A model generated the notes under the pieces. The model ran no database searches and was not told the origin of the DNA. It worked only from the letters and a program-made list of their open reading frames with translations. A stretch of 64,000 nt of DNA from contig CACIPW010000001.1 in assembly GCA_902588635.1 (NCBI GenBank), forward strand, positions 1 through 64,000, read 5' to 3'. Both the position numbers and the translations under genes were made by a program. Below are positions 33,195 through 50,813 of this stretch, in pieces; position 1 is the stretch's first letter, and every line of letters begins with the position of its first letter. This DNA comes from an uncultured Pelagibacteraceae bacterium (lineage in GTDB: Bacteria; Pseudomonadota; Alphaproteobacteria; Pelagibacterales; Pelagibacteraceae).

Positions 33195-33515
33195 ATGGCA
33201 ATTCAGAAAGCAAAGTTTTCAATAGGAGATATAGTTAAACATAAGCACTTTGATTTTAGAGGTGTTATATATGATGTGGATTTTGAATTTAACAATTCTG
33301 AAGAATGGTACCAGTCCATTCCTAAAAATGTTAGACCAAGAAAAGATCAGCCATTTTATCATTTGCTTGCAGAAAATGATGAGATAACTTATGAGGCTTA
33401 TGTTTCAGAACAAAACTTACTTAATGATGATTCTGATGAGCCAATTAAACATCCTTTAATCAATGAGATATTTTCAGGAAGAAAAGGATCAACTTATTTT
33501 AAACCATCTAATTAA
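33195..33515 (+). CDS. hspQ: Heat shock protein HspQ
   Basis: KFSIGDIVKHKHFDFRGVIYDVDFEFNNSEEWYQSIP...QPFYHLLAEN. Confidence 0.93.
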   Translation: MAIQKAKFSIGDIVKHKHFDFRGVIYDVDFEFNNSEEWYQSIPKNVRPRKDQPFYHLLAENDEITYEAYVSEQNLLNDDSDEPIKHPLINEIFSGRKGSTYFKPSN

Positions 33516-33583
33516 ACTGTAAGTCACTTTTTAAACACATTTACCGCAAATCTTAGACATAACATTTTTTTAATATTAGCTAT

Positions 33584-33653
33584 ATTCTGATCAGGAATGC
33601 ATTCGTTTCCCTTATATTATCTCCCTCAGCATTCTTGATCGGAATTTTTTTTT
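33584..33653 (+). ncRNA. Candidate small RNA or terminator: 17-bp stem, 28-nt C-rich loop, U9 tract
   Basis: ATTCTGATCAGGAATGC (33584-33600) pairs with GCATTCTTGATCGGAAT (33629-33645), including two G-U pairs; T run 33645-33653. Confidence 0.5.
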
Positions 33654-33699
33654 AAATAATATTTAAAAAATCTTCTTTGTTAATATATATAATCTTCGA

Positions 33700-34407
33700 A
33701 TGTTTAACTTCTTTGATTTAGGAAAAATCTTTGAAATTTCTTCAAGATCAACAAAGTATGTATTTTTTTTATTTATAATTGTATTAATTATAGGTTTAAC
33801 TGAAGCTCTATTTTTATCTCCAGAAGATTATAAACAAAGCCATTCTGTAAGAATTATGTATGTTCATGTTCCAGCTGCCTGGATGGCTCTTGGCATATTT
33901 TCTATGATAACTTTTTTATCAGTAGGTACTTTTATTTTTAAAAATAAAAATTTTTTCTTAATATCAAAAAGCTTAGCGCCATCAGGATTTATTTTTAACA
34001 TAATTGCTTTAATAACAGGATCAATATGGGGAAAACCAACATGGGGAACTTGGTGGGCGTGGGACGCAAGAATAACGTCCATGCTTATTTTAGCTTTATT
34101 TTATTTTATGTATTTATTGTCATGGAGAATTATAGAAAATAAAAATAATGCTATTAAAATAAGCTCTTTAATTATAATAGTTGGAGCTATTAATGTTCCA
34201 ATAATAAAGTTTTCTGTTAATTGGTGGAACACTTTACATCAGGGCCCATCATTAAAAATTATGAGCGATACAACCATTCATTCATCTATGTTAATACCAT
34301 TAGGCATTATGACTGCGGCATTTGCTCTATTCTCTTTGTTGATTTTTTTGATGAAATTTAATACGGAAATGATAAGGATTAAAAATAAAGGATTAGATAG
34401 ATTATGA
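33700..34407 (+). CDS. ccmC: Heme ABC exporter permease CcmC
   Basis: HVPAAWMALG...GKPTWGTWWAWDARITSMLIL (WWD motif). Confidence 0.96.
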   Translation: MFNFFDLGKIFEISSRSTKYVFFLFIIVLIIGLTEALFLSPEDYKQSHSVRIMYVHVPAAWMALGIFSMITFLSVGTFIFKNKNFFLISKSLAPSGFIFNIIALITGSIWGKPTWGTWWAWDARITSMLILALFYFMYLLSWRIIENKNNAIKISSLIIIVGAINVPIIKFSVNWWNTLHQGPSLKIMSDTTIHSSMLIPLGIMTAAFALFSLLIFLMKFNTEMIRIKNKGLDRL

Positions 34408-50719: not shown

Positions 50720-50813
50720 GCAGTTTCCGCAAAAACATTAAATTTGCGGTGTCTTTGGCAACAAAGAGATCGACACTAGTCTGCGAGGGTTCGCCCACTA
50801 GTGCGATAACTGC
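50720..50813 (+). promoter_or_regulatory. Structured leader RNA upstream of ffh (closing stem plus three hairpins)
   Basis: GCAGTT/AACTGC closing stem; CCGCAAA/TTTGCGG; CTTTG-GCAA-CAAAG; CACTAGT-CT-GCGA-GGGT-TCGC-CC-ACTAGTG. Confidence 0.75.

Follow-up and report, generated by a model that had tools for sequence, protein, structure and literature searches.

Comparison of the hspQ-ccmC gap across SAR11 gives good support for a real RNA gene in this gap, which appears as a single long hairpin with a constant C-rich loop and a promoter-like block upstream. The joint reading favoured here is that of a stand-alone small RNA (sRNA) gene, likely to be trans-acting, independent of Hfq and switched by a response regulator, whose loop would pair with ribosome binding sites; we hold this reading to be moderately probable as a whole. 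SAR11 bacteria are among the most abundant cells on Earth and possess few transcription factors, and very little is known about their regulation by sRNAs. Hfq has been found in none of 31 SAR11 genomes, in a search that detects it in the controls E. coli and Caulobacter. A single-copy RNA found family-wide, whose loop is fixed and whose promoter is dedicated to it, is a concrete gene to be sought in metatranscriptomes and in cultured strains.

Structure and conservation of the hairpin

The stretch of DNA analysed, referred to as the window, is 64 kb long, and the gap between hspQ and ccmC occupies its positions 33516 to 33699. The length of 184 bp given for the gap in the original prediction agrees with the flanking genes as recognised by their Pfam matches (Table 1). 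The stem of 17 bp, which includes two G-U wobbles, and the loop of 28 nt are located exactly at the positions that had been proposed. The region 33560-33660 folds with an energy of -22.4 kcal/mol (z -4.5), none of 200 shuffled sequences being as stable, and the predicted RNA alone has a z of -6.2. Nine T, reported to follow the stem directly, are present at 33645-33653; the first of them is paired and hence eight unpaired T follow. Apart from the element and its orthologue, no CTCCC within a perfect hairpin of at least 14 bp has been found in about 464 kb of SAR11 DNA (the window and samples of the genome G012).

Table 1. Features of the hspQ-ccmC locus in window coordinates
Feature	Position	Strand	Basis and remarks
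hspQ (YccV-like)	33195..33515	+	PF08755, 1.6e-29; upstream neighbour, not obligatory
Array of four half-sites, invariant C every 11 bp (33525, 33536, 33547, 33558)	33523..33561	+	55 anchored elements; probable response-regulator site
-10 element TAATAT (TA...T)	33571..33576	+	Fixed spacing from CAAA in 55 elements
Predicted sRNA, ~70 nt, start at most 1-2 nt from stem foot	33584..33653	+	Promoter spacing; fold
5' stem arm	33584..33600	+	Fold and covariation
28-nt loop, 5' part variable with C patch	33601..33628	+	Alignments A1 and A4
Loop core TATCTCCCTC, candidate seed, best-conserved part of the RNA	33618..33627	+	145 unique elements; alignment A4
3' stem arm	33629..33645	+	Fold and covariation
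T8 tract, possible intrinsic terminator in this genome, unconserved among relatives	33646..33653	+	Sequence
ccmC	33700..34407	+	PF01578, 6.9e-34; downstream neighbour, not obligatory

Relatives of the gap sequence from the same genus have been extracted through the homology of hspQ and ccmC. They share a common order, in which a conserved block 3' of hspQ is followed by a variable spacer, the stem, a loop closing with TTATCTCCCTC and the opposite arm. The genus-level alignment of 40 sequences has 94.4% of its cells paired and double-sided changes at 12 pairs, and its covariation of 0.40 compares with 0.27 for shuffled alignments and at most 0.12 for slid partners. Changes on both sides are seen at all 17 pairs of the family-wide alignment of 41 sequences, with a covariation of 0.653 against 0.333 (sd 0.014) for shuffled alignments and at most 0.18 for slid partners; this alignment was fitted to the covariance model and leans towards it, whereas the genus-level one was not so fitted.

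In other genera the stems are spelled quite differently, as in GCCTAATTGGGAATT/AATTCTCAGTTAGGC or ACCTAACTGAG/CTCAGTTAGGT, but enclose an identical loop core; the CUCCC of this core is kept between genera while the stem sequence is replaced with compensation. CTCCC is present in 41 of the 41 rows of alignment A4, which were not picked by this motif, and the exact TATCTCCCTC in 106 of 145 unique elements, for which CTCCC served as the anchor. Thus both stem pairing and loop, whose conservation across SAR11 had been named as a check, are retained amid massive compensatory change, which supports the stand-alone sRNA suggested at the outset.

G-U pairs account for 267 of the 2057 pairs (13%) in the unique elements. 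Since these would be C-A mismatches on the opposite strand, the RNA is placed on the forward strand. The same pairs bear on the idea of a DNA-level signal, an inverted repeat bound by a protein, to which the near-palindromic GATC sequences in the stem of genus g1 might point. The many G-U pairs break the symmetry of the DNA, and between genera the stem is replaced in full with its pairing kept; because the covariation includes G-U pairs, such a signal is in practice refuted and we regard it as extremely improbable.

Distribution across SAR11 and INDEPENDENCE from neighbours

The covariance model built from the element has been run on 298 genomes of the order, and exactly one copy per genome is found in 215 of them. 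Among the genomes that are at least 90% complete, the element is found in 119 of 150. It is carried by all seven sampled genera of family f1 (Pelagibacteraceae, SAR11) and is present in all 81 further loci of the family that were inspected (80 hspQ loci and that of the genome G178). The genome G292 and the genomes of genus g5 also carry it, though the genome-mode search with the model missed them. The sister family f2 has a septation gene directly 3' of hspQ, and nothing similar to the element is found there.

Those genomes of f1 without the element that have been checked lack hspQ or retain no more than a piece of it at the end of a contig, and ccmC is also absent from nearly all that were tested; therefore the whole locus is missing from them, by loss or by an assembly gap. 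The joint absence of hspQ, sRNA and ccmC has been observed in G241, G257, G267, G306, G240 and others (95-98% complete), and represents either a lineage in which the complete locus has been lost or a gap that recurs among assemblies.

Outside the order the sole match lies on one contig of 4.9 kb (locus L091, contig C48) in the genome G599, which is assigned to another alphaproteobacterial family and has 3% contamination. The gene order septA-hspQ-sRNA-ccmC-ccmE of this contig is SAR11-like. Given this order and the contamination, the contig is probably a misbinned piece of SAR11, and we have rejected it as a true member in another order.

Nearly all genomes have the element some tens of nucleotides before ccmC and in the same orientation. 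This position would suit a cis-acting leader or attenuator of the ccm operon, which had been put forward as an alternative. The genome G434 (locus L096) speaks against it, as the element there follows hspQ, has a PagL-like gene downstream and is retained with ccmC on another contig. Neither a conserved alternative fold nor a terminator has been found, the T tract is unconserved, and the window has no purine-rich site before ccmC with which the loop could pair; the leader is thus an improbable explanation. The PagL-like gene (lipid A deacylase-like) that takes the place of ccmC downstream of the sRNA is encoded at 2425-2943 of locus L239 (G434, genus g10).

The upstream neighbour is likewise dispensable. 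The genome G249 (locus L108) has the element before ccmC and an ABC permease in the place of hspQ, which is found at the edge of another contig. G434 and G249 alike retain the element together with its upstream block. The linkage is therefore broken in both directions, which argues for a separate gene and against a ccm attenuator or an hspQ terminator.

An intrinsic terminator of hspQ, or an RNA derived from the hspQ 3'-UTR, is suggested in this genome by the terminator-like stem and T8. About three quarters of the relatives are without the T tract, only 26% of the 145 unique elements having four T's within 10 nt of the stem, and a conserved loop is not needed by a terminator; together with the persistence of element and promoter block behind the ABC permease, this makes an origin from hspQ hardly likely. 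An intrinsic terminator conserved as such would have a short stem-loop and a U tract, whereas here the loop is long and the U tract is confined to a minority. Few G occur 3' of the stem (0-9% at each position in the 145 unique elements). For the separate gene favoured here, intrinsic termination is plausible in this genome and in a minority of relatives, as judged from the sequence, and a Rho-dependent ending or processing may possibly operate in the others.

The upstream array and its candidate regulators

The block upstream of the hairpin has been analysed in 55 elements anchored on CAAA, one row of which (L115) is a stray. Counted from CAAA, the ungapped pattern comprises C at -22, AACA at -13 to -10, TT at -6 and -5, CAAA itself, T at 6, G at 9, CA at 11-12 and A at 14. 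Nine free positions follow, and then T at 24 and A at 25 (98%) and T at 29 (75%). The C is found in 100% of the elements at each of -22, -11, 0 and +11, and the next base is A in 64, 98, 100 and 95% respectively. The rows were selected partly by CAAA, G9 and C11, but independently of C-22, C-11, T24 and A25; alignment A1, which was made without this selection, likewise shows C-11, C0 and C11 to be invariant.

Members of the PhoB/OmpR family of response regulators recognise direct repeats with an 11-bp period that lie about 10 bp before the -10 element, and they stand in for the -35 box. Half-sites with this arrangement, 11-bp direct repeats about 10 bp before the -10, have been identified here, and the array is probably a site for a regulator of this type. 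The promoter block is matched in 11 of 25 genomes, with one match each, of which the match in G010 (one mismatch) is probably due to chance; aside from it, no second promoter-block locus within a genome has been found among the 25. A scan for sigma-70 promoters gave matches at chance level only.

The TATATT noted at the edge of the stem is not the conserved -10 element; this is TAATAT, which begins 13 nt upstream of the stem. The spacing of the promoter implies a transcription start at 33583/33584, which coincides with the foot of the stem, and an RNA of about 70 nt is therefore predicted. In 138 of the 145 unique elements the first base of the stem falls between -2 and +5 relative to this start, the lower bound being imposed by the fold window, which opens at -3. 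About 20 extra bases with a small GGUA...UACC hairpin are seen between promoter and stem in G365 (L094, 1501-1642), so the spacing between the two is not fixed. CTTAGAC is present at 33552-33558, 12 nt before the conserved TA. The same heptamer is given as the -35 of the rhizobial sRNA NfeR1 (PMC10746234). As it stands 12 and not 17 nt from the TA, the exact start is inferred.

ChvI-like and PetR/OmpR-like regulators are encoded in nearly all genomes looked at and are candidates for binding the array. PhoB, considered on account of the 11-bp phasing, is unlikely: the upstream regions of SAR11 pst genes read TGTAACA/TTTAAC repeats, unlike the half-sites of the array, and the array is retained in G178 (99% complete), in which no PhoB scores above the cut-off.

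The pst operon of SAR11 has the order pstS-pstC-pstA-pstB-phoU-phoB. A conserved 11-bp repeat, TGTAACAAAAC-TTTAACNTTCN-TTTAATA, precedes pstS (L218, 6327-7367; pstS upstream regions of L218-L230) and is a clear candidate for the SAR11 Pho box. A search with TIGR00975 (PstS) gave no match although a pstS-like gene heads the operon, and this model therefore misses the PstS of SAR11.

Possible function and known systems

The features expected of a trans-acting sRNA, namely a promoter of its own, a discrete structured RNA and independence from the neighbours, are suggested by the promoter-like pattern and the breaks in linkage. In the proposed mechanism the sRNA would be transcribed rightwards from its own promoter, starting at about 33584. 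Transcription would probably be switched by a response regulator, structurally of the PhoB/OmpR family, bound to the four half-sites that are phased by 11 bp and substitute for a -35 element. The RNA would form one long hairpin that keeps the C-rich loop open, and the loop core UAUCUCCCUC would pair with purine-rich ribosome binding sites (AGGGAG type) of selected mRNAs and so block their translation.

The C-rich loop core fits purine-rich Shine-Dalgarno sites, and its pairing with them, as originally envisaged, is putative. Before SAR11 start codons AGGGA occurs 9 times against 2.0 expected and AGGGAG 4 times against 0.3 (400-kb sample). A global excess of targets is absent, the loop scoring no better than shuffled loops against 538 start regions (0.059 vs 0.055); a general anti-Shine-Dalgarno action is therefore unsupported and any action would be selective. 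The longer seed complement GAGGGAGAT near ATG yielded no convincing gene start that recurs among 15 genomes.

The genes preceded by AGGGAG in a 30% sample of G012 resemble amtB, tmm, an ABC substrate-binding gene and sufC, their N-termini having been read by eye. These serve as leads for a more specific proposal, a SAR11-wide Hfq-independent sRNA whose response-regulator promoter is dedicated to it and precedes no other gene, controlling nutrient-uptake mRNAs, which we offer only tentatively and consider rather unlikely in full. If true, a single gene would form the regulatory output through which a streamlined bacterium converts one environmental signal into control over the mRNAs for nutrient uptake.

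The main rival sees in the open C-rich loop a ligand of an RNA-binding protein, such as a cold-shock protein, Rho or a ribosomal factor, and no antisense seed. A single loop motif that stays constant amid turnover is explained at least as well by one partner as by many mRNAs, and the absence of a target excess in the start regions agrees with this. None of the tests run suggested a protein partner, however, and CUCCCU also matches the enriched purine-rich ribosome binding sites, so that we give a protein ligand an appreciable but small chance.

The Rfam search called for in the original prediction matched no family at gathering or relaxed thresholds. With Rfam 15 and E-values up to 10, the gap gave nothing credible beyond one chance snoRNA match far below its cut-off, and loci from other genera gave no credible match either. 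Elsewhere in the window (50759-50812, forward strand) there is a match to RF01793, the ffh sRNA motif, known from SAR11 and Alphaproteobacteria as an element preceding ffh. Meyer et al. (2009; PMC2704228) have described the SAR11 candidate motifs rpsB, rpsL, ffh, SAM-V, rhtB, pntA, bablM and SAR11_0636, several of them limited to SAR11 and marine metagenomes and one a hairpin that carries poly-U in roughly every second member. The present element has been found by the same logic and is not among them: none is described at hspQ-ccmC, and a ccmC-flanked gap was not encountered in their text. It is rated as a new RNA family, with the possibility of an earlier unnamed detection in the early metatranscriptomes (Shi 2009, Weinberg 2009).

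ChvR of Caulobacter crescentus is an Hfq-independent sRNA under the response regulator ChvI (PMC6237742). A regulator of the same structural class is proposed for the SAR11 element, and a ChvI-like gene occurs in SAR11. ChvR differs in having three hairpins, in being confined to C. crescentus and in being dedicated to one target; the two share no relation in sequence or locus. The ChvI motif of Caulobacter, TTGC-N3-GCAA (PMC9731502), also differs from the pattern of the array.

The α-r14 (NfeR1) family of Rhizobiales comprises Hfq-independent alphaproteobacterial sRNAs of 123 nt with three hairpins, each exposing an unpaired CCUCCUCCC; their stems diverge widely, while the unpaired C-rich anti-Shine-Dalgarno motif is ultraconserved, and a conserved promoter stretch with a CTTAGAC box lies upstream (PMC10746234). 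The SAR11 element likewise has a constant C-rich unpaired motif, freely diverging stems and a conserved upstream promoter stretch with CTTAGAC, in bacteria where Hfq was not found. Unlike the rhizobial RNAs it has one hairpin, carries UCUCCCUC and is about 70 nt long, and its CTTAGAC stands 12 and not 17 nt from the -10. As the triple CCUCCUCCC hairpins are absent, the SAR11 RNA is not a member of α-r14; by analogy, it may work like that family.
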